From NCBI GenBank assembly GCA_963971285.1, contig OZ020255.1, positions 5,704,001 to 5,768,000 of the forward strand: a stretch of 64,000 bases of DNA. Direction: 5' to 3'. The notes below the pieces were generated by a model, which worked only from the letters and a program-made list of their open reading frames with translations, ran no database searches and was not told the DNA's origin. This stretch comes from Astropecten irregularis. Taxonomy: Eukaryota > Echinodermata > Asteroidea > Paxillosida > Astropectinidae. Positions 11,195 through 31,560 of this stretch are shown one piece after another (within the stretch, counting starts at the first letter, position 1; each line of letters begins with the position of its first letter). A program made the translations under genes and the position numbers.

Positions 11195-11419
11195 CTAACT
11201 TCCTTGAACCTCGCTGATTTTGTCGCTCTTGGCCGCTTCGACCTCCCCGACCTTCTCCTCAGGCCCCAGTTTGCTGAGGATGGCGCCCATGTTGGCCGGA
11301 CACGTGTAGTGACCGACGCCGAAAGGCCGCATGTGATAGATCATGTATTCCAACAGGTACATGTTGTTGGGGCTGATGTAATGGAATGAGATGGAGTAAT
11401 CTGAACAGCACTCAGGACC
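11195..11419 (-). CDS. Terminal exon of the C1GALT1 cluster (CCSD exon), possibly shared
   Basis: After the acceptor CTCCTTGCAG (AG at 11421-11420) the exon opens in phase 0 with GPECCSD, then SFHY, LEYMIYHMRP and a charged tail ending in TAG at 11197-11195 (74 residues). It matches the C-terminal part of animal C1GALT1, including the paired cysteines of GPxCCSD. It joins gene A's exon 2 in frame. It would join gene B (donor at 22989) and gene C (donor at 30244) equally well, since both end in phase 0. I searched the minus strand between 11420 and 30190 by eye for a second exon of this kind and found none. Confidence 0.85.
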   Translation of the reverse strand, partial: GPECCSDYSISFHYISPNNMYLLEYMIYHMRPFGVGHYTCPANMGAILSKLGPEEKVGEVEAAKSDKISEVQGS

Positions 11420-14400
11420 CTGCAAGGAGGTTGGGGAGAGATAGCAAAGAGGAAGAAATGTTGCTTAGTATTGGATTCCTTGAGACTCTTCCCCGAGTCA
11501 ATGATCACTGTAGCTATACTAGAACATAGGGCCTGTTTGTTTATGGTGAATCCTGCGGATCCGGATCCCATTTTAGCGTTCTCCTGCATGGGACGTGGAT
11601 CCCAAAATCTGGGATCCTTTGCCTTAATCAAACAGGCCCCAAGCTTTCATCTACATGTAAACCACTCAAAAAAGTTCTGCAACTTATCTATGAATAGTGA
11701 AACTGGTATCATGTAGCAACAACTACTTCATTGCTTCTGATGAAGTAGCTGTTGCTACGAAAGCTCATGCTCTTTTTAAACTCTAGTTAGTCAATATAGT
11801 GCTACTTGTATTTTTGTATTAACAAATGTGCACGCTAAGGCTGCATCCGAATCTATTGTCTAGAGCTAGGTCTAGGTCTACGCTACACAGAGACACAAAG
11901 ACAATAGACCTAGCCGTAGCTCTGGAAGCCTGTTTCATACAAGGCCTTAATCTGCATATGATGTAAAGGCAGTGATAGGAATACAAACGAACAAACAACA
12001 TAAACACCACAGAGAGGGCTTAAATATGTGCACAATTCCTAACAAGAAAAAACAAATTACACAAAAACTACACTGTTATGTGTATTTTACAGACATTTCT
12101 TTCAAAAAGTTTCATGTTTAAAGGAAACAGGCATTTGAAGAGCCTAACTCAAATACAGATTACTGTACATGTAATGGTAATGTACGTTAACTTGTTATTA
12201 AAATACACGTGCTCCAATCATTAGGGCGCCCCTTTTTATTACTGTGGTTCTCATTTCCCGACCGACCCATATTTTGGGCTCCGACCGACCCTGTCCAGAA
12301 TGACATAAAAAAATGTAATATAAATTCAAGAAAAACAACATTAAAACAAAATCAAAATTCAAGAATTTCTGGAGACAAATTTTGCCAATAGGCCTACATT
12401 TTTATACTTTCTATCACAGAAAAAATAAAAAAATATTCAAACGAGATTACAGTAAATACAATGAACATTTCTCATAATTTTCTTGTGTATTCAGCCATAT
12501 TTGTTTTCCACCGAACTTTTTTTCTTCCGACCGACCGACCCTCCCTCAACGTGAAAAAGAAATGAAAACCACAGTAATCATGGAAATAAAAAGGGGTGCC
12601 CTTAAATGTAAATTATCAAAAGCACCATTTAAAGGTAAAATACAGTACATGATTGGTAAAAGTCACAGAACAGCACTCACACTTTGTCTGATCAAACATG
12701 TACATGAAATAATACACCTGTGAAAATTTGAGCTCAATCGGACATCTGAGTCACAAGAAAACAGCGAAAACCCGACTCAGTTTTTCTTATAAAACATAAA
12801 GAATGGTTTTGATCATACCCCGAGATCAAAACTGTTTTCGGTCGTTGTTTGACTAATTTCTGGATAAACACAGCATTTCAGCTGAAAATATTTTAATAGT
12901 ATGTTTCTACCAGCACCATCATCATACCCCGAGAGTTATAAGTAAATCTGTGAACATTTCTGATTGGTATGTTACCAAATCCTGTACTGTACCTGTAAAA
13001 AGAATATTTGACCAAGAAATACAAGCAGCTGTTACACAAGGATGTACATGTGCTTGTGCCAGAAAATCAATAAAAGTGATCTGTATTCAAAAATGGTTAC
13101 TTAAGTCCAAATTGGCTTTTGCGGATTTAAGCTACATTGTTTGTTCAGATTTTTTTTGGCTTTTCTGTGCTTAACGGAAAAGGTATTGCGTTTGTTCTAT
13201 TTTTGTTTTTTTTCTTCCGGAAAATTCTTTTCGTTTGAAAACCTATAGACTTTGCACAGGAGCATTCTACGCCCCACTTTGGTCACTTTTAAACAGCCGA
13301 TCTTAACCAAACTTGGTCCAAACAAAGTCCCCATAGCGTAGATGTGTGCCGAACATTTACGTCATGATGATGTCATCATGTGATTTTTTAAAGATTTTGG
13401 AATATTTATTTTGTCCCATTCACTCTGTACACATTTTCAAAGAATAAATGTTAGATTTTTCCGTACGCCTTTGTGATCTTTAAACAATCTCTGATTTTGA
13501 CCAAACTTTGCAGAGTTATAGATCCTATGGCAGAGTATGACCATAAAGAGTGACGTGATCATGACGTCATCAGATGTCATATTACAATCAATCAAATTTG
13601 GATAGGTTCAAATATTCAAAAATAATGGCGCTGCACTTAAATTTTGCCATGACGCGACGTTGGATTTTATCAGCAGTCGAGTGACGTACAGCAGCAGCGT
13701 TCACGCGTACTTACTTGCGCGTTGCATACAGAGTACATTCTTTGAAAGACATTCCAGTAAAAGTTTTCTTGTTCTACAGACACGCACACGAATTCAAAAT
13801 GACTGCGCCCAGGACGGTTTCAAGGCGTCTACGCACGGAGAACGTGGAGCTAGCGCTCTGGTAATTTTAATATAGCTCTGTGGGTTAACACTTTACAACG
13901 TGAAAGGAGGTACATGTCCAGCATATTTGCGGTGACACCATGTAATCTCTTCTGTGAGAGTGTGTGGTTCTGAGAAGAACCATAGGTATTATCTCGACGT
14001 GACTTATTCTTATTACCGAGTGTGCTGGATAGTACACATACTCCAGAAACCAGTTGGCTAACAAGCCTGATACTACATGTAAGTGAGACACTGGATGAAA
14101 TGGATGAAAGGTTTCTCTCATGAAGTTATCCCTTGAGTCGCCAGCAGCGACTCCCACATTCTGCAAGCACCGTCCCACTGCTATATCCTCCTCTTTGATG
14201 GAGCCTCTTCCCAGCCACAAACCCTGGCAGAGATTCAGGTCAGGGAAAGCTTTCTCGACGAGGAGAACCACAGCTCGTTTGCTCAGTACATACCCAGCAC
14301 CACCACTTATATAGCCTTGTTTGACAAACGTTTTAAACCTGCGACCATAGTACACGGGATCATCTGGACTCCTGTCTGCCAGCATGTACCGTAAATTCTC

Positions 14401-16057
14401 CATGACGACGTACGTGTCGTCGTCTGCTTTAAGGAACCAGTCGGCATCGTTCAAGTGGTGGTCGTAGACGTACTGAAATGCACCTCGCGTTTTCTGCCAG
14501 AGGTACTCGCGGCCCTCGGGGGCATCAACTTTGACAGTTGGGAAGGACGGGTCGTCCTGGGAACTGATGAAGATGACTTTGTTGCATCGTCGAGACCATG
14601 TGGTCTGTACGTGGATTGTCTTTTTCTGGAGGTTTTGAGGTGATGTTAAGATCAAACAGAGGATTCGGACTCGCTCGTAAAGGGCATCTGCAAGGACGTC
14701 CTGACCTACACATGTTAAAAAATAATAACAAAAACAAATATTAGAAAAAAAGAAAAGAAAATTTAAAGTATACTAATATTAAAAATCACATCTCCATTAA
14801 AAATATGAGGGGAAAAAACTACATTACAACTACACTTAACTGCAATGTAATGGTGTGATATAGATGCAGTACATAACTAATAATAATTTGGGAGGCTAAT
14901 CATCCTTACTCGCAGCTGGGGTGCTGAATTGAGAAGGATCACAACTTCATGTGATTGAGTAGCAGGCCTTCATGGGCGCCCTACATGTATGATCACGGAG
15001 TACAGCCTGAGATCGAAAGTGTTTGATTTTTGTGGAGGGAGGAAAACCGGAGAACCCAGAGAAAAACCCTCGTAGCATAGAAGACAACCAATGCACAACT
15101 CACATATTTAACCCAAGCCGGATTCGAACCCGGGCCACATTGGTGAGAGGGGAGTGCCTAATGCACCTGCCACCTACATGTACAGTGTGTATGCCACTAA
15201 TTAGCCATTTTAATACAGTTCTCACTTGTTAAGCATACATTGTACATGTAAATGTAAAGCTACATGTACATGTATGTGTGTACACAGTTACAAAGTAAAC
15301 ACACAAAGTTCTGTAAAAATACATGTAACCTGTAAAGCCTGAGATTCTGAGGCCATGGAGGCAGGTTAAAGCAGGTACTACCTACTAGATGATTTTGGTC
15401 GGGAAATAGATAATATGCAAATTAGGCTTGCCCTTCACCGACGTGGATGAGCACTGTATACTCAGTGCTTGTGAGTGCTAGTAAGCAGGAGGTCGTGGGT
15501 TCGAATCCCACCTGAGCAAGCATGTGATTTTTTCTCACGTGCTTTCACTATAAACACTGAGTATACAGTGCTCATCCACGTCGGTGAAGGGCAAGCCTAA
15601 TTTGCATATTAGGTACTACCTACATGTACTAAGCGTTTACAGTATTTATTTCCTTGTGCGTGGACGCAACTTCAAATAGTGCATGTCAAAAATCAGTTAC
15701 CAACCAAAATACTATATTGCTTGCAACTTATATGCTTTAACACTTACCAAGTTGTTTCTTGTGGACATGTGCCTTGAACGAGTCTAGTTCTTGCTGGGAC
15801 ACAGAATTACTGTCATTGACTATCACATGTTCATACAAGGACAAACGATCCTGCCATTCTGTAACGGCCCACCGGTGGACAAACTGTCTCACATGTCTCA
15901 TGGCATGCATGGTCCTATCCACGCCATTCCAATGCAAGATAAAAACGTGTGTAAAGAGGAATCCAACGATAAAGGCAGCAGCAAATTGACGGATTGCTTT
16001 CCAAATGCAGCTGCCTTTGGGTCTGGCCCGGAATCTGTTCAGAGAGTTCTGCTGCAT
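11195..16057 (-). CDS. C1GALT1: Gene A: core 1 beta-1,3-galactosyltransferase (C1GALT1-like), three exons
   Basis: Coding exons on the minus strand are 16057-15748, 14705-14017 and 11419-11195 (stop TAG), giving 407 residues. Introns are GT-AG: donor GTAAGTG at 15747 (phase 1), acceptor GTGTAG at 14706, donor GTAATA at 14016 (phase 0), acceptor TTGCAG at 11420. An in-frame TGA lies four codons before the ATG, which supports this start. Exon 1 encodes a short basic cytosolic tail, a signal anchor (about residues 19-43) and a stem. Exon 2 holds the GT31 catalytic core with TTWSRRCNK, the UDP-sugar/metal-binding DDD at about 198-200, and SGGAGYVLS. Exon 3 holds GPECCSD and SFHY, conserved in C1GALT1. 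Known family role: transfers Gal from UDP-Gal to GalNAc-Ser/Thr in the Golgi, making the core 1 (T antigen) O-glycan. Length is a little above the human enzyme. The family call is firm; the exact paralogue is not. Confidence 0.88.
11529..11640. mobile_element. Short MITE, GGGCCTGTTTGTTT family, near the terminal exon
   Basis: 112-bp foldback: GGGCCTGTTTGTTTATGG against TTAATCAAACAGGCCC, with inner GGATCCGGATCCCATTTTAG inverted as TGGGATCC. It lies in intron 2 of gene A, about 110 bp upstream of the splice acceptor of the terminal exon. Confidence 0.7.
12231..12604. mobile_element. MITE, AGGGCGCCCCTTTTTATT ends
   Basis: TTAGGGCGCCCCTTTTTATT against AAATAAAAAGGGGTGCCCTT, with ACTGTGGTT and CCGACCGACC repeated inverted in the arms and an AT-rich middle. 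It lies in intron 2 of gene A. Confidence 0.65.
12632..12990. mobile_element. Diverged relative of MITE family R1
   Basis: TTTAAAGGTAAAATACAGTA on the left and GTTACCAAATCCTGTACTGT on the right. The interior shares CATAAAGAATGGTTTTGATC and ACCCCGAGATCAAAACTGTT with 4320-4450. A similar, older copy may be 57020-57400. Confidence 0.5.
13700..13881. mobile_element. MITE family N1, right half only
   Basis: It follows the copy at 2207-2676 from GCGTTGCATACAGAGTACA through GACACGCAC to CTAGCGCTCTGGTAATTTTA; the left half is absent. It sits just downstream of the second exon of gene A, in intron 2. The preceding stretch 13000-13690 shows no recognised feature. Confidence 0.6.
14882..15182 (-). mobile_element. 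tRNA-derived SINE family S3, copy 1
   Basis: On the minus strand the head reads like a tRNA: GGCAGGTGCATTAGGCACTC (A box region) and GGGTTCGAATCCGG (B box). The body contains TTTGTGGAGGGAGGAAAACC and ends in AATAATTTGGGAGGCTAATC. The same order is seen at 17614-17945. It lies in intron 1 of gene A, near the second exon. Confidence 0.6.
15373..15623. mobile_element. Inverted S1 SINE dimer with 13-bp target duplication
   Basis: Two S1 bodies face each other: GCAAATTAGGCTTGCCCTTC with CACCGACGTGGATGAGCACT on the left and the exact inverse on the right, with the B box half of the tRNA-like head (GTCGTGGGTTCGAATCCCAC) between them. The unit is flanked by the perfect direct repeat AGGTACTACCTAC (15373-15385 and 15611-15623), typical of LINE-driven insertion. 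It lies in intron 1 of gene A. Confidence 0.7.
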
Positions 16058-16122
16058 CTTTTTGCCGTTTCAATCTCTGGCACAGAGTGATTAGAAAGTG
16101 GTGGGGGAAATCACGGAAGAAC

Positions 16123-16469
16123 AGGAATAATTTTTCAAATGTGGGTGCTTATATAATAAATCAGTGTAATATTTACCATTCTGGACATGTTAGCGTGCAC
16201 GTGGCAAATGCATGGGCTTGAATTTCAAGTACCAAACAGGAATAGTTTTTCAAATGTGGGTGCTTATAATAATAAATCAGTGTAATATTTACAATGTACC
16301 ATTCTGGACATGTTTGCGTGCACGTGGCAAATGCATGGGGTTGAATTTCAAGTACCAAAAAGGAATAGTTTTTCAAATGTGGGTGCTTATAATAAATCAG
16401 TGTATATTTACCATTCTGGACATGTTAGCGTGCACGTGGCAAATGCTTGTGGTTTAATTTCAAGTACCC
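16123..16469. repeat. Three tandem copies of a ~115-bp unit upstream of gene A
   Basis: Units start at 16123, 16239 and 16362, each with GGAATA(A/G)TTTTTCAAATG, GGGTGCTTATAATAAATCAG, CATTCTGGACATGTTAGCGT and GTGGCAAATGC. The array begins 66 bp before gene A's ATG, so it lies in the 5' untranslated region or core promoter. Confidence 0.8.
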
Positions 16470-16529
16470 ATCAGTCACAACAGGTGTGCTCATGTACAGA
16501 GTATGTAGCGTCAACTTGTATTGTAAATT

Positions 16530-17346
16530 ACAAGTTTGCAGCATTGCTGCGCGCTGCGCGTATCGGTGAAATGATCCTTGGGGTATGGTGGTGTGTGCTG
16601 GGTTTCATGGGGTACGTTCAGACAGCGTGTTAAATTTGCTAAAAAAACTGTTTTAACCCGATCGGTTTTAGCAATATGTGTCTGGACGCTCTAAAACAGT
16701 TTTATATCTAAAACCGATCGGATTTTATCTGCCCCTAAAACACCAAAGTTAAAACTGCTCGGGAGGAGGGTTTAGCGCTTAAAACCGATCGAGTTTACTG
16801 CTAAAACGCTGCCGGGACAGAATAACTTTCCGACATCCTGTTTCAGGGCAGAGAAACCTGGCAGCTGCTTACGTAACACCTGTTGTGGCGTGCTTAGTTT
16901 ATGACACACAGATAAATCCGCGCGCTTTATTTTATAACTGGAAGCCCGTATGGGATCAAGGCACAGTGCATGACCTCTTAAAACCAAAAATAAAACCGAT
17001 CTGTTTTTAACTGCAAACAGTAAAACGCTGTACATGTATGGACGCAACATAATTTTAATTTATGACTTACACAATGTACCCCCCGCAGTTGTCGAACGGT
17101 TTAACTCAATTGGTTTTAAATAAAAGGCTGTCTGAACGTACCCATTGCTTCTGATTGCCAAACGAACAAAGATAATTGACTATTGGGGTCACCACCAACG
17201 TAGGGCTGGATGGCTCAGTTGGTAGAGCGCTTGTACGGTGTATAGTAGGTCGCAGGTTCGAATTCTGCTCCAGTCAATTTTTCTTCGTTCACTTAAATTC
17301 AATGACTAAATAAATTCAGTCAGTTTCCCTTGTGGTTATTTGATGA
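16530..17346 (+). mobile_element. SINE family S2 split by a 535-bp MITE
   Basis: The SINE starts near GCAGCATTGCTGCG and breaks off after GGGTTTCATGG. It resumes after 17143 with ATTGCTTCTGATTGCCAAAC, then the tRNA-like head 17203-17276 (A box TGGCTCAGTTGG, B box GGTTCGAATTC) and the tail CAGTCAGTTTCCCTTGTGGT. The inserted MITE 16609-17143 has ends GGGTACGTTCAGACAGC and GCTGTCTGAACGTACCC (one base differs) and arms rich in AAAACCGATCGG. Confidence 0.7.
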
Positions 17347-17613
17347 TTGTACAAAAAATGTATTGTACACGTATGTAGATTATACTTTTGAGTTCATATA
17401 CAGAACAAATAATGCTTTTGAGTTACAATAACTCAAACTCATACATGTACACCTGTATGTCAAACAGTACCTTCCCTAACACGTACCGGTACACGTCATC
17501 GCAAGTTTGCCATCTTGTACATGTACCTTCACCAACTCGTAACTTGAGTTAAGACAATTCGTATCAGTGGAATTTACAATTTTTCACATTTCTTCTGCCG
17601 TGGGTAAGAAAAA

Positions 17614-17945
17614 TAATAATAATTTGGGAGGCTAATCATCCTTACTGGCAGCTGGGGTGCTGAATTGCGACTTCAACGTGATCGAGTTCGAGTAGCAGGC
17701 TTTCATGGGGGCCCTTGGCTGCCAGCCACATAAACCCATATATCACAGAGTACAGCCTGAGATTGAAAGGGTTTGATTTTTGTGGAGGGAGGAAAACAGG
17801 ATCACCTGGAGAAAAACCCTCGTAGCATAGGAGAGAACCAACGCACAACTCAACTCACATACATGTATGACCCAGACTGGATTCGAACTCGGGCCACATT
17901 GGTGAGAGGCGAGTGCCTAACGCACTTGCCACAGTGCTCCCACCT
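17614..17945 (-). mobile_element. tRNA-derived SINE family S3, copy 2
   Basis: Same order as 14882-15182: AATAATTTGGGAGGCTAATC, TTTGTGGAGGGAGGAAAAC, AAAAACCCTCGTAGCATAG, then the tRNA-like head with GAGTTCGAATCC (minus strand) and GGCACTCGCCTCTCACC. It lies between genes A and B. Confidence 0.6.
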
Positions 17946-18179
17946 ATGGATGATAAAGCGCATTTGAAAGTGAAGAGGTCAGGCCAGGCTATCCCCAACC
18001 TCTTAACCTTGACATTCTCCAAACACTAACCCCTATCCCTTTTAAGAAACGAACGATTTTGTCAAACAATCCTTACAATGGATCATCCATTGAAAACTAA
18101 GTACCGTAATTCAAAACAATTCCAGAACAAGTGATTTTTTTGATAAACGAATCGACTGTACTACTTGATTTGGCACGAC

Positions 18180-18420
18180 GGTACGAGTTGTCTCAACCAA
18201 AGGTACGAGTTGGCAAAGGTACGAGTTGGCAAAGGTACGAGTTGGCAAAGGTTCGAGTTGGCAAAGGTTCGAGTTGGCAAAGGTACGAGTTGGCAAAGGT
18301 ACGAGTTGGCAAAGGGACGAGTTGGCAAAGGTACGAGTTGGCAAAGGTACGAGTTGGCAAAGGTACGAGTTAAACTGTACAGTATGATTTTTGTGTTGGT
18401 AAAGGTACGAGTTTGCAAAG
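18180..18420. repeat. 16-bp minisatellite (GGTACGAGTTGGCAAA)
   Basis: Eleven to twelve nearly perfect 16-bp units. Since 16 is not a multiple of 3, each frame reads through all three phases of the unit and returns after 48 bp. That gives a 16-residue pseudo-repeat (VRVGKGTSWQRYELAK) in every plus-strand frame. These open frames are an artefact of the repeat. Confidence 0.85.
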
Positions 18421-18817
18421 ATAGAGTTGACCTGTTCCCAAATATTATTTCTCGTTTTATAGTGAAATTCTTATCTACATGTACGTCGGTGAATAATAAT
18501 TATTTGCTTAATTCTAGGCCCTATATCCCTGACGACAAAATAATTAATAACAGATTATTACTTTCTCCTTGTTTTGTACAAATTTATATACGGATCTGCA
18601 ACCGCCCTTATACAAATATTTATTTAGAGTGTGGGCTGTTGGACACGTTAAATAACCAGGCATTTACGATAAGCATAGCTCTATGCGATAAGTAATATTT
18701 TACAGTTTTTAGCCACAGAATCAGCCAATAGTGAAAACATGGATAAGATGGCATTGGTGTAAATGTTGCTTTTTAAAATTAACATGTACCAAATCTTTTA
18801 TCATGTTTATATTTAAA

Positions 18818-19072
18818 GTGAACAAAGAAAAATTGACTGGAGCGGGATTCGAACCAGCGACCTCCAGAATACCGTAGAGGCACTCTACCATCCGAGCCAT
18901 CCAGCCCTATGTTGGTGGTGACACCAATAGTCAATTATCTTTGTTCGTTTGACAGTCAGAAGCCATGAAACCGCGCACACATCGCCATACCCCAGGGATC
19001 GTTTCAATGATACACGCAGCAATGCTGCAACCTGGGAACGGTACATGGGGGATCACTCAAAGTGGATACGGC
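18818..19072 (-). mobile_element. SINE family S2, minus-strand copy
   Basis: Minus-strand tRNA-like head at 18834-18907 (GGGCTGGATGGCTCGGATGG, then GGTTCGAATCCCGCTCCAGT) with the upstream body ending CAGCATTGCTGCG and an ATTAATTAAAAAGCC edge. It lies in the spacer between genes A and B. Confidence 0.65.
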
Positions 19073-19326
19073 TTTTTAATTAATATAATCATCAAAATGA
19101 TGATTAATATGTTTATATTCAGTTAGTTGTTGACTTGGGATTCTAAACATTTTGTCAAGCTAGCAATAAACTAGTACTAAGTACATTATGCCTTGTAATT
19201 ATGTACAGTATGTACTGGTTACATGTAACTGGTTTACACCATGGAGGAAGGAAAACATGTTTACACCATGTTTACACTAACTTCAACATTTTGTTTTTCA
19301 ATGACCAGATTAGTTACCCACTACTG

Positions 19327-19492
19327 CAAGTCTTGAATTTAACAGAGGCCAAGGAGGCCATGGCCTTCATTGCCCTGGTTCTTGGCCTTGGTGCCCCTTC
19401 AAATATTTCCATAGACATTATGATTTTCCAATGGAAGTGCCCCTTGCAATGGAAAAGTGGCCTTACCCTTTTCGGAACCAAATTCAAGGCCT
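19327..19492. mobile_element. MITE, AAGTCTTGAATTTAACAGAGG type
   Basis: The ends CTTGAATTTAAC and CCAAATTCAAGGCCTG enclose arms with GGCCATGGCCTTCATTGCCC and CCCCTTGCAATGG. Related copies lie at 29803-29970 and 36823-36986. Confidence 0.6.
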
Positions 19493-20205
19493 GTACTGGT
19501 ATCATGATACATGCTTAGAGTGACTATAAATGTCTCAAAATTTCTTATCGCTAATGTATCTCCAAAAATATTATGAAGAAATGTATACGTGATGTTATGT
19601 GGAAAAGTACTGTCCAGTACAAATTACACATCGTGTACACAGTGTGCTTATAAAAAGTACATGATTTCTACTGGTACATGTACCGTACTGTAAATTTATG
19701 TTCTGAGTATTAAACATATTTATCACAAGGCAACAAATTCATGTAACTGTCTCAGTAATTTTGAACAAAAAAAGCATATATTTCTGCATAATGTACTGTA
19801 TGTACATCAGTGTTGTAGGTCCCGAGACCAAGTCTTGGTCTCGGTCTCATCCCCTATGGCATGCATGGTCTTCATTTTGTTGCTGGTCCAGCAATTTGTA
19901 GCATTTAACAATCAATTACTTTACTGTCATGTTTAGTACCATGTAGTTTGTAAACATGATAAAACATGTTCATTTTGTTTTGTACAATTTATACCGTACA
20001 TAGTTCAAACATTTGTTAGCCCGCAGATCATGTTACGAGTTAAACCTGTTAATGAATCATTCGTTCGTACTGCACGTTGGAAAGTACATACAAAAAGATG
20101 TTTATACATGTACATGTATGTACAGTATGTAGCAACTGGTACATGTCATGCAGTGAACATGGTGAAAAGAATGATTTTCTCAGTGTACCTATTAAAATGT
20201 ACAAA

Positions 20206-20344
20206 TGGGAGACTTTGGAGAACCGGTCTTCAAGTCAACAGCGCACGCGCACGCACAACAGCGCAGGCGCAAAACAACGTGCGCATGCTCACAATTGCGT
20301 GCGCGTGCGCTGTTGGCTTGACGACCGGTTCTCAAAAGTCTCCC
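20206..20344. mobile_element. MITE, GGGAGACTTTTGAGAACCGG family
   Basis: TGGGAGACTTTGGAGAACCG against CGGTTCTCAAAAGTCTCCCA, arms with CAAGTCAACAGCGCACGCGC. Copies: 3740-3880 (diverged), 38006-38140, and a lone left end at 43568-43608. Confidence 0.7.
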
Positions 20345-21191
20345 ATTGTACATTATGTACACGTAACTGTAAGTACTGTGTATCCAGTTGCAATACAGGT
20401 TTTGCAAGTTAGTAATTCTTTGCAATTAAAGTGCAGTTTGCACCCGGAAATAAAAACGACCAATAACACGATTGTCAATGTGACCTACATGCAGCGAGAT
20501 GTACATGTATGTAATTGCAACATCTGTGCATTGCGAAAAGGCAATCTTGACTAGCATACAGTGTAGTATCTGCTGTGATAAAGTTCAGAACTTCAGATAC
20601 AAAGACCACAAAGAGAATACTATGATAAAGCAGGAAATAGAAAACACTCCACTGCGTGCATATTCTGCCATGGGACAATGCGAATATCTGAACGATATGA
20701 AACAAGTTGAAATGTATTTGACAATCGACATTATGTTGAGTCAGGTACAATGTACATAAAGCAAAGGGTACAAATTTATGCAAGCAGGGCCTGCCCTGTG
20801 CACTATTTGGGCCTAGGGGTATTTGTGCAGTTTATCGCACCTCTTGGTAGTAACTAGTATTCACAAAAAGATTTCACGCCCTGTGTACAACTACAATCCC
20901 TATGAGACTGGCGTGAAAAAGTTGGTGTCTTTATTGAAAATGATTACAAGTATTTTCTCCAAGCGCTGGGACTTTGGATTTCAGTTCAACTGATTTGGAT
21001 TTAACCATCTGGTTGCAAAATTTCAAAAACGGAATAAGAAACCACACAAAAAAAGAAGACTAACATTTGCTTAAATACTTAATTCCAAAACTGTACACTG
21101 TACAGCAGGTCTACATACACCTGTTCTTGAATTTCAGTGAGTTATTTTGTCCATTATGCCAAGTATTTTGCCACTACAGTGTGTATATATA

Positions 21192-21388
21192 CACAGGTTT
21201 ACACCTTGGCGGCCATCTTAGATTTTGATCACAACTTCAAAACGAGGCACTTCCACGCATGCGCACTTTATGAAGTGTAAACCCATCCATTGTCGAAGAC
21301 AATACACAGGTTTACACTTCAGCGGTTTTGATCGCGACTTCAAAACGAGGCACTATCAGGCATGCGCACTTTTCGAAGTGTAAACCCG
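21192..21388. repeat. Direct repeat of a ~90-bp foldback unit
   Basis: Two units, 21192-21284 and 21305-21388. Each begins ACAGGTTTACAC, includes ACTTCAAAACGAGGCAC and CATGCGCACTTT and ends GAAGTGTAAACCC. The unit ends are inverted relative to each other (GGTTTACACTTC / GAAGTGTAAACC). Confidence 0.65.
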
Positions 21389-21824
21389 TGTATTCAAAAA
21401 CGGTACTTTGATTTGAAAAAAAAAAAGAAGGGGAAAAATAGTGAAAAGCCTTCCAAGCGCGGCAATCGCATACAAGAACACGTAATTGTTGCGCCCTCTG
21501 CAGCACGTAGCATAGAAATGAAGTTGGTCCCATTGATCATAATTATGAAGTCTTTACAATCGAGATCAACAGTTGGTCCCGACTCCGAGAGTCAAAATCA
21601 CAGCGGTACCCCGAAATCTAGCGACTTCATGCAAGTCTAATACTGCATCCAGCATGCATTAGACCCATTCACTGCACATCAACAAAGTACTTTGCAAATT
21701 TGCAATCACATGTTAACATGTACATTATGTACAATACATGTTGTACATAAAATGTGTGTACAGTATTTGGTGGAATTAAGTCGCATTCAGTACCGTGACT
21801 TGCAGCCCACTTCAGTACCTGTAG

Positions 21825-22712
21825 GAGTGCTGTGCATTTTCGGAGCTTTTGAAAACCGGAAAACGCTTTGAAAAAATTAGCGGTTGCCCGAGCTCCGATT
21901 CATAAAAATGAATGATAGCGCTATATTACGCACGTGTCGATAATGTGCACGATCAAATGATGCATAGCGCTGTATGTAGGAGTGTGTAAAACATGCTACA
22001 ACGATCGTTGCGCCGACGTATACATTCAGTTTCTGGTCTCTATCTATACGTGCGTGTTTAGGAATCTTGCGATGATTTGGTGCCGGCAACCTTACAGAAT
22101 ATTCAGTCAGAATCTTTCATAACTTGCTCAGCGTGACATGTCACATTTCTTACCGAAAAATCTGCATTGAAGCAGGCCGAAATCCACGGTACCGAGCGCA
22201 ACTTGAATGCATGCACCAAATACACACGTTGTACGTACGACATGTAGGCTTGCACTTCCGGCCTGATTGCGAATTGGCGACTGTGTACTGGTGCACAACG
22301 TATGCTTTGAAAGGTGCGGCGCACATTACACATCGAGGAATTTTCTGGATGCAATGCTGCTGCTGCATGGGCCGGGCCATGCGGCCACGTGGTGGGCATG
22401 CGGTGTTCATGATGCATCGTATGCGATATGTTTACGTCTTCTTTCGAGCGATCGTCGCGTTCGGAAGGCTGTTCGCAATATTTGTTTAATCAAGTTTGCG
22501 CAAAGTTTGTTTCTGCTTGGCAAAATGCACCCAAAACGACTGAAATTCAAGTATGTTTTATACAGTATACACTTTTGGGGTTGTTTATTTATTGGGCAAA
22601 TGTCAGTCTACTTTTTAAAATGTTGGTTTCGTATTCCGTTTTTGAAATTTTGAAACCGGATGGCAAGATTTTAAGCGGGAGCCCGTGAATCCGTTTTTGA
22701 TGCACAGCACTA
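21825..22712. mobile_element. Non-autonomous hAT-like element (888 bp)
   Basis: Ends AGTGCTGTGCAT and ATGCACAGCACT are flanked by a perfect 8-bp direct repeat ACCTGTAG (21817-21824 and 22713-22720). Short open frames inside have no recognisable protein similarity, so it is probably an internally replaced, non-autonomous copy. It sits about 270 bp beyond the end of gene B's second exon, between genes B and A. Confidence 0.75.
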
Positions 22713-22989
22713 ACCTGTAGATTTTGCTTTATAAGAAATCGAAGAAGTCACGCTCAGCAAGCCATTTCTGGATTTCAAATTATCCTATTTCGCCCAGCAC
22801 TACATGTAGAACTGAGTAACATGTCTTTAGCCATGTTAAACATGTACCATGTTTACAAAATTACAAGGCAACAAATTCATTACCATCTCAGTAATTTTGA
22901 ATACAATTTTAAGCATGAATTTCTGCTGAAATCTGCACAATTAGATAGTACACGTACATGAATGTGAAAAATGGTGATCATTTATTTAC

Positions 22990-25900
22990 CGAGTGAGCAG
23001 GAAAGTAGACATAATCCCAGTACCAAAATTTCTGGGGGACAATCCCAGCCACCAAATGATGCTCTGGGACAAATGGATGGAATCGCTCTCTCTGAACACT
23101 GTCCCGGGCGTCGCCAGCAGCCACGCCCACATTAGCCAGGCACTTGCCGATCTCCACGTCTTCAGCGGCCCCTGCAGCTCTTTCGTCGCTTCGGCAGAGG
23201 TCTGGGTTTACAAAGGCTTTCTCTATAGCCAACACCAGGGCAGCTTTGCTCAGTACATATCCAGCACCACCACTCATATAGCCTTGTTTGACGTACGGTT
23301 TAAACCTGCGACCGTAGTACACGGGATCATCTGGACTCTTGTCCGCCAGCATGTACCGTAAATTCTCCATGACGACGTACGTGTCGTCGTCAGCTTTAAG
23401 GAACCAATCGGCATCGTTCAAGTGGTGGTCGTAGACGTACTGAAATGCACCTCGCGTTTTCCGCCAGAGGTAATCGCGGCCCTCCGGGGCATTAACTTTG
23501 ACAGTTGGGAAGGACGGGTCGTCCTGGGAACTGATGAAGATGACTTTGTTGCATCGTCGAGACCACGTGGTCTGTACGTGGATTGTCTTTTTCTGGAGGT
23601 TTTGAGGTGATGTCAAGATCCAACAGAGGATTCGGACTCGCTCGTAAAGAGTATCTGCAAGAACGTCCTGACCTAGACAATGAATCAAAGAATGACAGGT
23701 TAGCATGGTTAGAGAAATGAACCTGGCATCAGGAAAAAGACATACAAGTACGTGCATTATCCAATTTTCATAGCAAGAATAATGATCCGGGGAAAAAGAT
23801 TGCACACAAATTTTCCAAATATATTTTCTGAACTCTAAGCAACGACTGAATTTGGTACTGTACTGTATATTGTGGACATCAATTAATCATTTACTGTACA
23901 CAATATGTACAGTTGCACAAAAACCAAAGTATGAAATTACCTATAAAGGTAATATCATACGTTGGTTTTTGTCAAAGAAATACAGATTCATGGGCAAAAA
24001 TATCAAGGAAGATACAGTAACAGTCATGTGAAATTTTCAGTCCCATACGGTTCCCACTTTTTGAGAAAACAGTGAAAAACGACCACAGTATTTCTTAAGT
24101 CTTTTCTCTTTTATTTTTGATCTTTTAAAAGATGAAAAAGATTTTCGGTCGTTGTTTTATTAATTTCTGGATAAATACACCTTTTCAGGCAGAAAGATTT
24201 TAACGGTATGTTTCTACCAACACCATCTTCATACCCTGTAAGTTAAAAGTAAATCTGTGAAGATTTCTGTTTTGGTTTCTTACCAAAGTATGATACTACC
24301 TTTAAGTCGTACCCAATTCAACATGTACCCATAGTAATAGCTATCTTTGATATTCCTTGGCACAGCATAATTGATAACAATTCTGTGAATTTTCATAATC
24401 ATATTCATAAATATGGTAAACTTTTCATAAACTGATAAATGTCACTATTTTAATAAAATAAAAGACAGAAAAGCAGGAAGTCCTGCCTTTTCACAAACGA
24501 AATGAAAAGTCCACAAGGACTTGTGTTTTATAATGACTAACACGTATTTCATGTTTGAGAAATTGAACTTTACACACAACACGTCATGATCATGATGATG
24601 AAGTGTTTACAACCATTTTTCCATCTGTTTCACAAACATATGTCGTGTAATGCAAATTCGAGTGGACTTAGGTTTGACATGACTCGGATACAGGCACAAA
24701 ATAAGTCAATTAATTTTAGTACCAGTCTGCCAGTTTAATAAAAAAAAAGGAAAGAATTCCACTGACGGCCATCACTTCTGCACAAACTTATGGGACCAAC
24801 AGAGGGCGTTTTGATAAAAATGGCTACCTCTGCATTCGAAGTGTATAATTGTAGGTCAAAAAACCCTGAAAATCTCACTTTGTAGATAAGCTACACCAGT
24901 TTTCACTCCTGAGATTGTAGTTCATCATGACTTGCATCAAATAAGTTAACTCTTGGAGTCTTGGAGGAAATAACCCTGTTTCCGTCATGGCCGTCAGTGG
25001 AATTCTTTCCAAAAATTATTCTCCTACTAGTCCTTCTATCAATAACAATATGGTAGGCCTAACGTTAGTACGTAATGGGTGAGAAATGAGGCCATCCACA
25101 GACATCTTTCCGTAATAATAATTCAATTAAAATTCACTGCACGATGTATCGTCCAGTCATGTGTTTTCACCCGACATGTGTTTTCGCTCCCCCAATTCGA
25201 CTCCCGTTTACCGCGAGATCGTGCCAGATTCTTTGTGATCAGTATCCCTGAAGTGATGACTACACTCAGGGCTATCTCCGACATTCAGGATGTTGAAAAT
25301 AAAGTTTCCAGTCGTGAGTGATACTCAAAAGTTAAAAACTATGTGATTTTGGGTGTATATTACTAATGCATTTTAAGGCTAATGTTCAAACGTTTATAAA
25401 AGACACAATCTGTGGTCAAATATTCCAAACTAAACTGTCGTCTGCTAGAGCAACTTTCATTCTTCCGATGTCAGACGGCAGGTCATGTGACCCTTTTGCG
25501 ATCTGGGTTTTTGTGGCGTGCCAATGAGACAAAAGTGTTAAAGTCATTCTCTAATCGGAGTGACAGTGTTTTGTTTTTCTCCTTTAAATTTTAACTTTGA
25601 TAAGCTGATGTATCCATGTTTAGGCCTCTCATAATGATGCCAGATATTATGAAAAATGCTCTGATAATATTTCGCATCAAGATAAACAATTAGATTTAAT
25701 TTTATTTGCCTTTAAATATGTCATGCATGATATTGTTGATAAATTATCTATAATTCACAATCTTGGAATCAAGACTGTTTTAGAACCTTTTTAAAATAAA
25801 CTCGATTGACCCAGTAAGAAGAATCGAGTCAGGACAATATTCCAGCCGTTTTTGAGTGACTAGGTGCGCCATAGCTACCCCGATGTCAATGAACTTTGCC

Positions 25901-26427
25901 GCTCAGCCAAGGGGGTGAAAACACATGACGTCGCGTTTACATAGCGGAATTGGTGTCCCTGTAAATGACGGACAATATTTTCAAAGAAAAGACTTGAACT
26001 TCGAGGATTTTTACAGATAATTATCTGGAAGTGTCCAGTTGAAAGGTGTGAGGAGTGATTTTCTGATATTCCATTTCGTTTCCATTTTTGAGAAACTTTC
26101 CTGTTATCGGAGCGAAAACCGATAACTGCAGGATATGTAATGTAACTTACCGAACTGCCGTCCGTGCGTGTGTCCCTTGAACGCCTGTGATTCTAGCTCC
26201 GACACGCGATTGCTATCGTCCACTTCAATGTGTCCGTGCGGATCGTCCAGCACCGCAATTCGCTTACTCCAATCGCTCAACTGATCAAAATCTCCCCCAA
26301 ATTGGGAGTGGAGAACGAAGACGTACGTCAGACATACTCCAAACAAGAAAGCGGCGCAAAAGGAGCTCAGAATCGAGCGAGTTGTGCCGAAACTTCCGCT
26401 CGTGACACCAGCAGAACTGGCCGCCAT
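22990..26427 (-). CDS. Gene B: second C1GALT1-like galactosyltransferase, two exons seen
   Basis: Exons are 26427-26151 (277 nt) and 23672-22990 (683 nt), together 320 codons. The ATG context is AAGATGG, with an in-frame TAA four codons upstream. Donor GTAAGT at 26150 (phase 1) joins acceptor GTCTAG at 23673, the same intron position as gene A. Exon 1 encodes a signal anchor (about residues 18-40) and a stem rich in Asp/Ser. Exon 2 carries TTWSRRCNK, DDD at about 187-189, SGGAGYVLS and a tryptophan-rich end (KFWYWDYVYFP). At 22989 there is a donor GTAAAT in phase 0; without splicing the frame stops after three more codons. The CCSD block would then be missing, so a functional enzyme probably needs another exon, and the only candidate seen is 11419-11195 beyond gene A's own exons. 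Expected role is core 1 O-glycan synthesis in the Golgi, possibly with different acceptor preference. Confidence 0.82.
23941..24305. mobile_element. MITE family R1, in intron 1 of gene B
   Basis: Reverse-orientation copy: AAAGGTAATATCATACGTTG on the left, AAGTATGATACTACCTTTAA on the right, with the central palindromic GATCTTTTAAAAGAT. Confidence 0.75.
24749..25010. mobile_element. MITE, GGAAAGAATTCCACTGACGG family
   Basis: GGAAAGAATTCCACTGACGG against CCGTCAGTGGAATTCTTTCC (20 bp perfect), with CAACAGAGGGCGTTTTGATA inside. Copies: 35683-35937 and the interrupted 32221-33450. It lies in intron 1 of gene B. Confidence 0.75.
25146..26134. repeat. ~990-bp duplicated block, copy 1 (abuts gene B exon 1)
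   Basis: This block and 33506-34498 are almost identical over about 990 bp, from TATCGTCC(A/G)GTCATGTG to AAACCGATAACTGCAGGATA. It stops 16 bp from the end of gene B's first exon, so it fills the donor side of intron 1. An inverted pair (GTCATGTGTTTTCACCC and GGGTGAAAACACATGAC, 25154 and 25914) lies inside. No credible coding frame is seen. Confidence 0.75.
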
Positions 26428-27254
26428 CTTGTATTTATCTTAATCGATGACGTGTGTTTGTTTGTGCAGCACGAAAGGAACTTACTCCAATCAGCAGGTC
26501 TGCTTTTACTTGGCCTTGGGAACAGACGTGCAATTAACGCCATCTGTTGCTGTTGTTCTTCCATTATTCTCTAATTTCTCTTTTTTTGTCAACATTACAT
26601 GCGATATTTTTTCAGCCTCAAATCAATCAAAATAATCAATCATTAGCCTCTTCAATCATAATTTAGACCAGAAATGGTGACGACTTAATAAATGCAGCCT
26701 ATAAAATGATTTTTGTTTTATTCCCCTTTGTTTAATGTGCAAAAGAATAATTAAGAATTGAGGTATTCCTATATTTTATATTTGTTAATAATTTTTTAAT
26801 AAAATAATAAAATATATTTTTCTTTTTTTCTTTCTGTCAAACAAACAGAAAATCCTTTCGTTACTGTCGTTTCCTCATGTTTCTAGAAAAATTGTAATAC
26901 ATTATGTATTTTAAAAATGTTATGTCTTTTGTTTGGTTAATTATTACCAGTAATGCACATTTAATGAATAATGGATTCATGTGCAATTTGGCTTATTGCT
27001 GCGAGATGTAAAATTTTTATTTTTATAAATCATTTTTTAATTTGAGTTTTTGACTTGATGTGTGTTTTAACATGATCTTCTATTAATTGTGCCATTTAGG
27101 CCTTTGAGAAAAAATGTACTACACATGCAGGATATCAAACCTCTGGGACTAAATTCTACATTGAACCTGAGCATTTAAATTGATCACTAAATGTCATGAA
27201 TGTATGGAAACAGAAATTTATGCAAAACTGTTGTGGGTCAATATTATATTAAAT
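26428..27254. other. Upstream flank of gene B, AT-rich
   Basis: From the gene B start codon outwards this is AT-rich, with long T and A runs (26580-26830), and holds no repeat I recognise until the R1 copy at 27255. The promoter of gene B must lie here, but I see no TATA-type element that I would defend. Confidence 0.4.
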
Positions 27255-27600
27255 TTAAAGGTAATATCATACTTTGTTAAGAAACCAAAACAGAAATGTT
27301 CACAGATTTACGTATAACTTTTAGGGAATGAAGATGGTGCTGGTAGAAACCTACCGTTAAAATTTGTCCGCTTGAAATAGTGTATTTATCCAGAAATTAG
27401 TAAAAGAAATAGTAAAGAAATACTGCAGCCGTTTTTCAAGATTTTCTCAAAAAGTAGGCACCGAATGGGACTGAAATGTTCACAGATGACTGTAACTGTA
27501 TCTTTCTTGATATTTTTGCCCATGAATCTGTACTTCTAAAAGTAATCTCTGAACATTTCTGTTTTGGTCTCTTACCAAAGTATGATATATCTACCTTAAA
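27255..27600. mobile_element. MITE family R1, upstream of gene B
   Basis: TTAAAGGTAATATCATACTT at the left and AGTATGATATATCTACCTTA at the right, same orientation as copy 1, with a shortened centre. Confidence 0.7.
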
Positions 27601-28014
27601 ACGTACCTGTAGCCTAGATACATAGTGTAACTACAGTCTATGTTCTCATAATGTTTCAGAAAATTGTACGCAAGCAAATTACATACAGTGTACATACATG
27701 TATGTATATGAGAGTCCTATATAAATTTATGCAATTTGATCACAATTTGTAACCAATAAACCAACACATATCTTTCTTTTGTTATTCTTTCTTATTAATG
27801 TATATTGTATTGTAATTGCATTATTGTGTACGACTGTCTATTACAAAATCATACATGCCATATTGCCACGAACAGCTGCATGATATTGGCTCCTCAATAA
27901 AAATGATAATAAAAACTAATAAAATGAGAATTTATTCATGCAAAACATCTTGTCAGCTGATAGAGATACTGAACCCTGCACTGGCACATCATTGTAAGCC
28001 AAAAAGCCATCAGC

Positions 28015-28247
28015 TTAAAGGCGCCTTTCCATATGCGCGTTTTTTCATCCGCTGCGTATACGTTGCGTGTCCGTAGCGTTGCAAAAAAATCGATCATTAT
28101 AAAAAAACAAGCGACCCTTTCCATATGTGCGCGTGCGTTTGAAAAGGTCTCGTGCGTCTTTTTAATGGGCAATTTTAACGCACACGCAACGTACACGCAG
28201 CGTATACGCAGCGGATGAAAAAACGCACATATGGAAAGGCGCCTTAA
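28015..28247. mobile_element. TTAA-flanked foldback, AAGGCGCCTTTCCATATG ends
   Basis: TTAAAGGCGCCTTTCCATAT against ATATGGAAAGGCGCCTTAA, with TTAA at 28015-28018 and 28244-28247. The arms consist of CGTTTTTTCATCCGCTGCGT and ACGCAACG-type words. Confidence 0.75.
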
Positions 28248-28394
28248 CACTCCTGTGTTTATAATTATTCCAATCATGGAGGAAAGAACACACCAATAAA
28301 CAGTCCTTGGACACAGAGCATCATGCATTAGGCCTAAGCAAGCACAAACAAGGATTAGGCCTATTCATTTAACATTTTTAACAATTCATAAACT

Positions 28395-28706
28395 AAGCTG
28401 TATCCTCTTTGAGTGATCCCCCATGTACTGTTCCCAGGTTGCAGCATTGCTGCGTGTATCATTGAAACGATCCCTGGGGTGTGGTGGTGTGTGCGTGGTT
28501 TGACATTTCATGGCTTCTGACTGCCAAACGAACAAAGATAGTTGACTATTGGTGTCACCACCAACGTAGGGCTGGATGGCTCAGTTGGTAGAGCGCCTGT
28601 ACGGTATTCAGGAGGTCGCCGGTTCGAATCCAGCTCCAGTCAATTTTTCTTTGTTCACTTTTCAATGACTTTAAAACTCAGTCAGTTTCCCTTGTGGTTA
28701 TTTCAC
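28395..28706 (+). mobile_element. SINE family S2, most complete copy
   Basis: About 310 bp: AAGCTGTATCCTCTTTGAG, GTTGCAGCATTGCTGCG, a foldback with GATCCCTGGGGTGTGGTGG, the tRNA-like head 28569-28642 (A box TGGCTCAGTTGG, B box GGTTCGAATCC) and the tail CAGTCAGTTTCCCTTGTGGT. The anticodon arm is irregular, so it is a SINE and not a tRNA gene. Confidence 0.7.
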
Positions 28707-29438
28707 GTATATAATTCATAAACTTGTGAGTTGTCACTCAACACCAAGAAAAAAGTCCTAGCTGTTACTCTGGAGACCGAAAAAGGTCTAGATCCTTTGT
28801 GGTCACAACTGGAGGTAAACATTTCATCCCAAACCCCTTGGGCCTTGTGTGCATACTACACAGGGCTAAATTGAAAACAGTCTATCTCTGGTGTTTAATG
28901 GTCACTCGTGTTGCATAATTCTGAAACTGAATATTTCCCTTCTAATTCACTCTAAACTGGATGTGGTTGAGGAAGACCATTCAGATGTCTTAAAGGCACA
29001 TGTGTAGACCGGTCTACGTAGTCAAGACCGTCCCTCCTCAGCAGTCTAAGTTTTCGACCATTTTTAGCACCAAAAAGAGTCTATCGTAGACCGTTCAGAC
29101 ACAAGTACATGTAGGTAGACCCTTTTCAGTTTACACTGAAGATACATGTAGACCACTTTTAGTACTGTGTACTTAGTCAATAAACAAGTTTGTAAAATTC
29201 AACAGAGCCACTCAATTCACATTATTTTATTTCCATATTTGTATTTATGTGCTGACCTGGGACTAGGCAAAATAAGGCACAAAAAGTAAATAAATTCCAT
29301 GAAAATGGTTCGAGACAGACATACATACAGACAGGACCCAAGAAAAAACCACACATGACAAACAGACAAACAGACAAACAAAACAAGAATGAATGGACGG
29401 AACATCTGATCAGCTAAATTTAAAAGATAAAAACTGTA

Positions 29439-29970
29439 GTCCTTTTCACAATACATGTATGTATCTCGTTTCAATCTGTGTTGAACCCAATCGGATCTGC
29501 CTTGGTTCAGCCCGGCAAGTTTTTGAACCATTACGAATAATGTTCACACTACGTTTATGGTGTTCAAACTGTTCACACATGACAATGATCATGGTGAAAA
29601 ATGCAGTTTGGAACTGGGTTGAGATTTTCAACCCTGCTCCCTACCAGGGTTGATTTCCATCTGACTAGGCCGTCCTACCTGGGTTGGCTCGGAGTTAAAC
29701 CTTTCATTAATAGTGTGAAAAGGGTTGAACAAATCTCGGGGTTTGATCCGGTTCCAACCTCGAGATTTTGGATAGCGTGAAAAGCCCTTGTGTGTATCAC
29801 TATCAGGCCTTGAATTTGGTTCTGAAAGGGGCAAGGCCTCTTTTCCATTGCAAGGGGCACTTCCATGGGAAAATCATAATGTCTATGGAAACATTTAAGG
29901 GGGGCACGAAGGCAAAGAACCAGGGCAACGAAGGCCATGGCCTCCGTGGCCTTCGTTAAATTCAAGGCTT
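29439..29970. mobile_element. Two adjacent MITEs between genes B and C
   Basis: 29439-29789 has ends AGTCCTTTTCACAATAC and GATAGCGTGAAAAGCCCTT with arms sharing GGGTTGA/TCAACCC words. 29803-29970 has ATCAGGCCTTGAATTT and AAATTCAAGGCTTG and is a copy of 19327-19492. Only 13 bp separate them. Confidence 0.65.
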
Positions 29971-30038
29971 GGTCTATGCCCATGTACAGTTGTGGACATG
30001 GCAACAAAATAAAACCTTATATTAGTTATGTGTAAGCC

Positions 30039-30206
30039 TGGGGCCGATTTCACTAATGCTTTGCGATCATCGCTAACCATGCCAAAGCTCAAATCCATCG
30101 CTACACGGAAAATTGCTATGCAAAGTAGTGATCGATTCTCTGTAAATGATAATGGATTTGGGCATAATTTACAGCAATGGTCGCAAAGCATTAGTGAAAT
30201 CGGCCA
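30039..30206. mobile_element. Short foldback, GGGGCCGATTTCACTAATGC ends
   Basis: GGGCCGATTTCACTAATGCT against AGCATTAGTGAAATCGGCC, with TTTGCGATCATCGC arms. It ends about 40 bp from the splice donor of gene C, in its downstream intron or 3' flank. Same end type as 49834-49968 and 63509-63660. Confidence 0.7.
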
Positions 30207-30244
30207 CTGGTACAGACAGAGGTTAATTGAAATGAAAGACTCAC

Positions 30245-31159
30245 CTCCTTCTCAGGGTGTCTGATGTACTGCCAATACCAGGTAGTGTATCCCTTTGTAT
30301 TCAAAGGCAACTTGTGATCAGGCACTATCATACGGAACCGCTGCACGCCCTCAACGTCTTTCCCTTTGTTGCTAGACACGGCTCCTGCTGCCCTCATACA
30401 CTCCCCTAGATCCAGGTCATCGGCCACGCCCCCAAAGGAGGTCTTGCAGACATCCAGCGTGGGGGCGATGAGGTTCAGTCCTTGCCTGCTCATGGCAAAG
30501 ACGGAGCCCCCAGATTTGGGCCCGCTGAACACGTGTCCAATGTAGTCTGGGATGTTGGCGCGATGCATGAGCAAGAGGTATCGCAGGTTCTCCGGCACCA
30601 GAAAAGAATCGTGCCCCGCCTTGACGAACCAGTCATAATCCGCGTCCTTAAAGTGTTCGTGCACATACTGCAGAGCTAGTTTCGTCCGAAGCCAAACATC
30701 GGACTTTCCTTCGGGCATTTTAATATCAATGGTGCCGATGTTGGCGTCCAAGACACTGCTTAGGAGGATGACCTTATTGCAGTGCTTGGTCCAGGTAGCC
30801 TTGGCAGCTTTGCCGAAGTTCACGATTTGACTGCGCTGTAGGATCACAAAGCAAAGAACTTTGACCTTCTCGGATAGAAAGGTGCTGTTTAACCTCGGGT
30901 CAAAAACCCCGAGTTTGGATTCGCTGTTCACGGTTGCAGCCACTGGGTCGGGTACCAGCAGCCCCTTTGAGACCCCGTCCGTCAGTGCTGGAAGGGTATA
31001 ATACACGCTGTGTGCGCCGGCTGTTGTGGGTCGGAGAGGAATCAAATTTCGAATGTCTGCTTGCTTGTGCTCGATGGCTTGGTACTTGCTGAAGACAATA
31101 GCCGACAGAATGCCAGCTGTCAGGCCTAAGATGGTGGCGAAGACACTGGTGAGACTCAT
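30245..31159 (-). CDS. C1GALT1C1: Gene C: Cosmc-like (C1GALT1C1-like) GT31 protein lacking the DDD motif
   Basis: One long exon encodes 305 residues from the ATG at 31159. Residues about 4-24 form a signal anchor; a stem with one N-glycosylation site (NST, 91-93) follows. The GT31-like domain starts near KVKVLC (98-103). It contains TWTKHCNK (122-129), close to the TWTKHC of vertebrate Cosmc and unlike TTWSRRCNK in genes A and B. The metal-binding DDD is replaced by GHD (182-184) within WFVKAGHDSF. A GKDV motif late in the domain also recalls Cosmc. Known Cosmc role: ER chaperone needed to fold C1GALT1, itself without transferase activity. The exon ends in a phase 0 donor, GAG|GTGAGT at 30244; reading through it would add 17 residues and stop at 30191. 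An acceptor TTTTACAG at 31192 suggests a 5' non-coding exon upstream. It could alternatively be a divergent, inactive C1GALT1 paralogue. Confidence 0.8.
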
Positions 31160-31230: not shown

Positions 31231-31560
31231 ATATTAAATTATTTTTAGTCGGGAAATAGAAAATACGCAAATTAGGCTTGTCCTTCACCGACGTGGATAA
31301 ACACTGTATACTCAGTGCTTGTGAGTGCATGTGAAAAAATCACATGCTGCTCAGGTGGGATTCGAACCCACGACCTCCTGCTTATTAATGCACATGCCAT
31401 ACCGCTAGGCTACCGAGCTAGCTGGGGTCAGCGGGGTGAATCGAATCCAATATCGCGGCGGGTACCGCAGTAAATCATGAATACCGGTATTAAATGATTT
31501 TTGGTCGGGAAATAGATAATAGGCAAATTAGGCTTGCCCTTCACCGACGTGAGCCAGCAA
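31231..31560 (-). mobile_element. SINE family S1, copy 3, with extra body fragment
   Basis: On the minus strand: tRNA-like head (GCTCGGTAGCCTAGCGGTAT, then GTCGTGGGTTCGAATCCCAC), body with CACTGAGTATACAGTG and AAGCCTAATTTGCGTATTTT. A second piece of body, same orientation as the first in plus-strand text (GTCGGGAAATAGATAATAGG), follows at 31503-31552. It lies just upstream of the gene C start, so it may overlap gene C's 5' region. Confidence 0.6.

Follow-up and report, generated by a model that had tools for sequence, protein, structure and literature searches.

We analysed a 64-kb stretch of the genome of the starfish Astropecten irregularis (the window; positions 5704001-5768000 of contig OZ020255.1, here C19, 20.07 Mb). 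On its minus strand lie exons of family GT31 that resemble T-synthase (C1GALT1, the core 1 beta-1,3-galactosyltransferase); in the order of transcription these are unit C, unit B, unit A and a terminal exon with the CCSD motif, T (Table 1). A sequence-only reading of this DNA had noted that the three main exons end in phase-0 donors (14016 in A, 22989 in B, 30244 in C) and that a single CCSD exon, 11419-11195, also opens in phase 0; both can be read directly in the sequence. The donors are all GT and stand at homologous positions. The acceptor of T reads CTCCTTGCAG/GGTCCTGAG, with the exon opening at 11419 and its stop codon ending at 11195. Joined to T, units A, B and C give proteins of 407, 394 and 379 aa without internal stops. 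We add to the earlier account that A and B have two 5′ coding exons each, separated by a phase-1 intron, and C one. A profile of the whole family placed five segments of the window above threshold, namely the three main exons, T and exon 1 of B; exon 1 of A had no significant match of its own to this profile (E 0.24). In a search of the species' own genome the exon of unit C gave no other full-identity match. Two marks of a multiple-variable-first-exon cluster were found: tandem paralogous 5′ units on one strand with donors of one phase, and one constant 3′ region for several units. An acceptor-like TTTTACAG is located at 31191-31160, ending 32 nt upstream of the ATG of C, which suggests that C may have an upstream non-coding exon.

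Table 1. Exons and putative introns of the locus, exons in the order of transcription (a slash marks the splice site)
Feature	Positions	Strand	Remarks
Unit C, single 5′ coding exon, 305 aa, type-II membrane pseudo-T-synthase	30245..31159	-	donor GAG/GTGAGT at 30244, phase 0
Unit B, exon 1, signal anchor and stem	26151..26427	-	donor phase 1; resembles the N-terminus of Asterias X2
Unit B, main catalytic exon	22990..23672	-	all tabulated catalytic residues present; donor TCG/GTAAAT at 22989, phase 0
Unit A, exon 1, signal anchor and stem	15748..16057	-	donor phase 1
Unit A, main catalytic exon	14017..14705	-	fast-evolving 3′ part; donor TCG/GTAATA at 14016, phase 0
T, sole CCSD terminal exon found, 74 aa and stop	11195..11419	-	vicinal CC, catalytic C-His/Tyr, dimer-interface helix
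Putative intron A to T, 2597 nt	11420..14016	-	
Putative intron B to T, 11570 nt, across unit A	11420..22989	-	suggested by Asterias X2
Putative intron C to T, 18825 nt, across units B and A	11420..30244	-	suggested by Asterias X3

We used the window T and the ends of human C1GALT1 and Cosmc as three tblastn queries against the window and observed one significant terminal exon, T itself; the remaining matches had E-values of 0.049 or higher. A T profile built from the T regions of 141 out of 147 proteins was then run on the 3280 six-frame segments of the window, where it recovered T (11464-11198, E 7e-27, 91 bits) and gave nothing above 11.9 bits outside it. The same profile scored 35.2 and 30.8 bits for two T exons that lie at 12.64 Mb of the contig and have clearly diverged; it is therefore sensitive enough for copies of this kind. 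The segment 20584-20429 (E 0.026, 11.5-11.9 bits) was considered as a second T exon and rejected as a chance match, similar over 12 residues only, since 20 dinucleotide shuffles of the window gave best scores of up to 12.6 bits, a range that includes its own score. The flanks beyond the window (4.0 and 9.8 kb) gave no GT31 match up to E 0.1.

Searches of the whole genome, covering 475.7 Mb in 168 contigs and giving lower bounds for the numbers of main and T exons, were made with the B domain plus the T core, where 12 candidates were scored and 12 matches obtained, and with C, where these numbers were 9 and 7. Both returned the same T-synthase-like main exons, at least seven and all on the contig of the window: C, B and A in the window, two more in tandem at 10.098/10.105 Mb and another two, likewise in tandem, at 12.640/12.646 Mb. 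Three T exons were also among the matches of the B search, together with two distantly related GT31 sequences (23-29% identity). Against the seven mains there are at least five T exons in the genome. A search with the window T missed both of the diverged exons at 12.64 Mb; one with a crinoid C-type T, taken up to E 10, gave the window T, two T exons at 10.1 Mb, one at 12.64 Mb (E 0.2) and none else. Each of the four mains outside the window has its own T, in phase 0 at the same position, behind an intron of 1452, 771, 330 or 489 nt. Ordinary tandem duplication in this family therefore copied T too, and among the mains and T exons found, a ratio of three to one exists at the window locus only. 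The search with a CCSD-exon profile, which the sequence-only reading had proposed as a check for further copies, revealed no further T in the window, and the four T exons found elsewhere in the genome each lie beside a main of their own. The two other tandem pairs (C19:10096000-10105999 and C19:12636000-12655999) form one clade (98/96).

The best relatives of the predicted products are two proteins of the starfish Asterias amurensis, isoform X2 (P0001), 67% identical to B+T, and isoform X3 (P0121), 57% identical to C+T. The last 85 residues of X2 and X3 are identical, with the identity starting exactly at GPECCSD, that is, at the boundary of the window T; in the main parts, 97 of 291 aligned residues are shared (33%). 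Isoform X labels number the products of one predicted gene, and both proteins come from contigs of 17,751,778 bases. For comparison, T-synthase and the C-type protein of the same species share, of the 44 residues of the T core, 25 in Anneissia, 24 in Antedon, 21 in Strongylocentrotus and 22 in Ptychodera. The arrangement is seen in a valvatid-like and in a forcipulatid starfish. The donor of C looks conserved at the sequence level: in six out of six C-type frames that lack T (window C read through its donor, and P0122-P0126) the same residue is followed by V (GTN), and similarity stops there. The T core has 41 of 44 residues in common between the window and Asterias, at main-part identities of 67% and 57%, as compared with 34-39 of 44 in three other T-synthase pairs (mains 68-70% identical); these pairs, too few in number, are suggestive of a tighter constraint on T through sharing.

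We consider it highly probable that these exons make up a single compound locus, in which C, B and A serve as alternative 5′ units and T as their constant terminal exon. A last exon common to A, B and C, as proposed in the sequence-only reading, is supported by the common C-terminus of X2 and X3, the single T of the window and the conserved donor of C; we infer that the junctions to T, that of A included, are made in Astropecten as well.

For the residues of the encoded proteins we relied on the Drosophila C1GalT1 structure as described in parts of PMC9065035, the source also of the roles assigned to residues of T: the metal is bound by Asp181, Asp183 and His324, Asp255 acts as the base, mutants of Tyr218 and Trp300 are inactive, Tyr325 contacts the pyrophosphate, and beta7, alpha9 and the C-terminal loop take part in dimer contacts. 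Among 20 tabulated sites B keeps all and A keeps 19, the exception being Y213F (F is found in Branchiostoma too), while T carries the CC pair, His324, Tyr325 and Tyr336. A+T and B+T accordingly have the DxD, xED, Trp300, C-terminal His (C-His) and CC of a T-synthase. The DxD is missing from C+T; C has D181G, D182H, no Tyr213 and Pro at Tyr218, and its main part is only 32% identical to B. Judged by these residues, A is probably an active duplicate of the two 5′ exons of B, and C is apparently an inactive paralogue. The C-His is present in all 15 tabulated T-synthases. At this position M, M, Q and S stand in the four C-type proteins that have a CCSD region of their own, and N in human Cosmc. 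Starfish C would thus carry a His which those relatives lack, as expected if it borrows the exon of the enzyme. The pattern of N-glycosylation sites across the proteins followed no clear rule. As for the CC pair, a passage of PMC11005171 describes a mollusc T-synthase active without it, so CC is not strictly needed for activity.

Several observations speak against a shared T. The donors of A and B fit the consensus weakly (5/9 and 6/9; C has 8/9 and four control genes 6-8). The equal contig size is the only sign that X2 and X3 share one chromosome, isoform names being database labels, and there was no A-type Asterias protein among the matches listed (the best 120 of 2669, and 7 in another list). 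The C-type database proteins of Patiria (P0122) and Acanthaster (P0123) read through the donor and stop without CCSD. Such ends fit a C that is able to terminate within its intron, and they may be real intronic ends; probably, P0122 and P0123 are gene models cut short and worth correcting. If the ends are real, C and perhaps B could be truncated by reading into the intron, with an intronic poly(A) site, leaving T to A alone or to A and B. It would suit this that the read-through meets a stop after 17 codons in C and 3 in B, and that the introns of both contain AATAAA (e.g. at 29231 and 22986) and several of both AATAAA and ATTAAA, while the 1.7 kb 3′ of T have no AATAAA and just two ATTAAA (10988, 10688). 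These hexamers are frequent here, though, with ten between the C donor and B and ten between the B donor and A. The tails beyond the donor are unalignable across species, yet GTN stands at the donor in all six frames; B without T would lose the His that every tabulated T-synthase keeps; and Asterias X3 does carry T. We regard truncation as improbable. It is very improbable that B and C have terminal exons of their own, too diverged or too distant for detection. The numbers obtained from the genome are lower bounds, and the search with the window T did miss the two T exons at 12.64 Mb, but the T profile found these two well above anything it scored elsewhere in the window, the crinoid query led to no additional exon, and X2 and X3 end in one and the same sequence.

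Read-through chimeras of same-strand neighbours are common, and the shared isoforms could in principle be functionless conjoined transcripts of neighbouring genes. We give this very little credence: the only CCSD-bearing end that C could have here is T, both the frame and the donor of C are conserved, T completes the fold predicted by modelling, and the arrangement is seen in both of the starfish named above. An unlikely alternative, to be taken more seriously than these, leaves the shared exon in place and makes C+T an enzyme of changed specificity and not a helper. C keeps the third Asp of DDD, the Asp of xED and Trp300/Tyr304, and would gain C-His/Tyr from T. However, Asp181 is replaced by G, N, S, E or P in seven out of eight tabulated ambulacrarian C-type proteins (Ptychodera keeps Asp181 and has S at Asp183), in all eight Tyr213 is absent and Tyr218 is replaced or absent, and the C-His is missing from all four C-type proteins that carry a CCSD region of their own.

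In the compound locus that we favour, each unit would have a transcription start to itself and be joined to T by splicing across the intervening units, probably in the manner of UGT1A and GCNT2. B would be the standing T-synthase, and A a younger copy of the two 5′ exons of the enzyme, placed between B and T. T would complete all three folds, providing the metal-binding C-His with its neighbouring Tyr, the vicinal disulfide and the dimer-interface helix. The putative role of C+T would most likely be that of a non-catalytic partner of the enzymes, either a heterodimer subunit or a folding helper. More tentatively, and as a possibility rather than an expectation, we suggest that this one locus yields, as alternatives, an enzyme and an inactive partner dedicated to it, both with the exon that encodes the catalytic C-His and a portion of the dimer interface.

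The C-type proteins form one clade (11 rows, 100/100) whose named members are from starfish, crinoids, a sea urchin and a hemichordate; window C groups with those of the valvatid starfish Patiria and Acanthaster (99/96). The simplest history would start from a gene pair with separate last exons; in the line to starfish the terminal exon of C would have been lost, and C would have taken over T of the neighbouring enzyme. This takeover most likely occurred in the starfish lineage, because in the other ambulacrarians seen the C-type protein has its own, different CCSD region. An old linkage of C-type and T-synthase genes is only suggested, by two pairs out of four: the two proteins come from contigs of equal size in Antedon and likewise in Ptychodera, and not so in Anneissia and Strongylocentrotus.

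Unit C had been read earlier as a putative Cosmc. The likeness holds insofar as C is a T-synthase paralogue without DxD, and it would have a CCSD C-terminus only if spliced to T. As to common descent, human Cosmc groups with the C-type proteins in one tree (52/89) and is ungrouped in the other, the human row being very long-branched. Grouping human Cosmc with the two vertebrate T-synthases gave p 0.051 in the approximately unbiased test, which does not decide between the two origins. Among structure matches, none was named Cosmc. No Cosmc homologue has been found in invertebrates, according to passages in PMC11005171 and PMC9865085.

The main exons of A and B are 95.2% identical over 435 nt (14712-14278 and 23679-23245) and then diverge abruptly. 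In their 3′ parts synonymous change is saturated: by the Nei-Gojobori method (NG86) the nonsynonymous divergence, dN, is 0.35-0.38, and the synonymous one, dS, is 3.0 or undefined. Because a near-identical 5′ part stands beside a saturated 3′ part, we read this pattern as gene conversion, by which the first part of the main exon of A would recently have been made alike to that of B. A duplication of A and B made by the assembly was considered and rejected; the 3′ parts of the mains are 53% identical in protein, and the first exons have no blastn match. Outside the main exons the two loci have in common one 158-nt repeat-like stretch, at non-corresponding places. A evolves faster (0.23 versus 0.063).

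The likeness to UGT1A and the clustered protocadherins drawn in the sequence-only reading is borne out by the architecture, which is also known for a glycosyltransferase gene, GCNT2 (IGnT) of vertebrates. As described in parts of PMC1885805, human, mouse and rat GCNT2 has three similar variable first exons with a membrane anchor, separately spliced to two common 3′ exons. GCNT2 belongs to an unrelated family; the starfish locus also differs in that A and B consist of two exons apiece, the constant region is a single exon, and C is an apparently inactive paralogue. UGT1A and the clustered protocadherins likewise have tandem variable 5′ units and constant 3′ exons; their variable exons are similar to one another and number about a dozen or more, and the relevant parts of PMC1885805 describe no pairing of enzyme and pseudo-enzyme. 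In UGT1 a promoter precedes each variable exon (PMC3325998, in part). Compared with the GCNT2 layout, what appears to be new, on sequence evidence, is that one unit is an apparently inactive distant paralogue and that the shared exon carries a catalytic residue. We found no description of such a locus in the literature searched, which took in few subscription papers.

Vertebrate Cosmc (C1GALT1C1) is intronless, and CHPF is a weak or inactive partner in chondroitin synthase. Cosmc resembles C+T in lacking DxD, bearing CCSD and being paralogous to an active T-synthase (PMC9065035 and PMC9865085, both in part); Cosmc and C1GALT1 differ from the starfish units in being separate genes with different C-termini, Cosmc being X-linked (PMC9065035, in part). 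The CHSY3-CHPF heterodimer (PDB 9o4g, 9q8z) is similarly a two-subunit synthase, and its chains match the predicted C+T model, though it comes from separate genes and makes a different product.

A clade of DxD-broken T-synthase paralogues thus exists in ambulacrarians, in starfish apparently tied to the enzyme via a common exon. If our interpretation is true, the interfaces of the enzyme homodimer and of the enzyme with its partner cannot drift apart in starfish, the ratio of enzyme to helper would be set by the choice of alternative start sites, and a Cosmc-like system would exist outside vertebrates. At this locus it could be tested directly how a pseudo-enzyme partner might stay matched to its client, and how a gene can survive the loss of its own last exon via that of a neighbour.

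In the remainder of the window a Pfam scan of ten other open reading frames gave nothing above the curated cut-offs. A 16-bp minisatellite of ∼11 copies is located between units B and A (18198-18371), and a 30-bp minisatellite of ∼44 copies, open in several frames, at 58712-60038. We observed five tRNA-like Rfam matches (17204-17276, 18834-18906, 28570-28642, 31347-31419 and 38876-38948), where ARAGORN gives six; these are probably the heads of tRNA-derived interspersed repeats.

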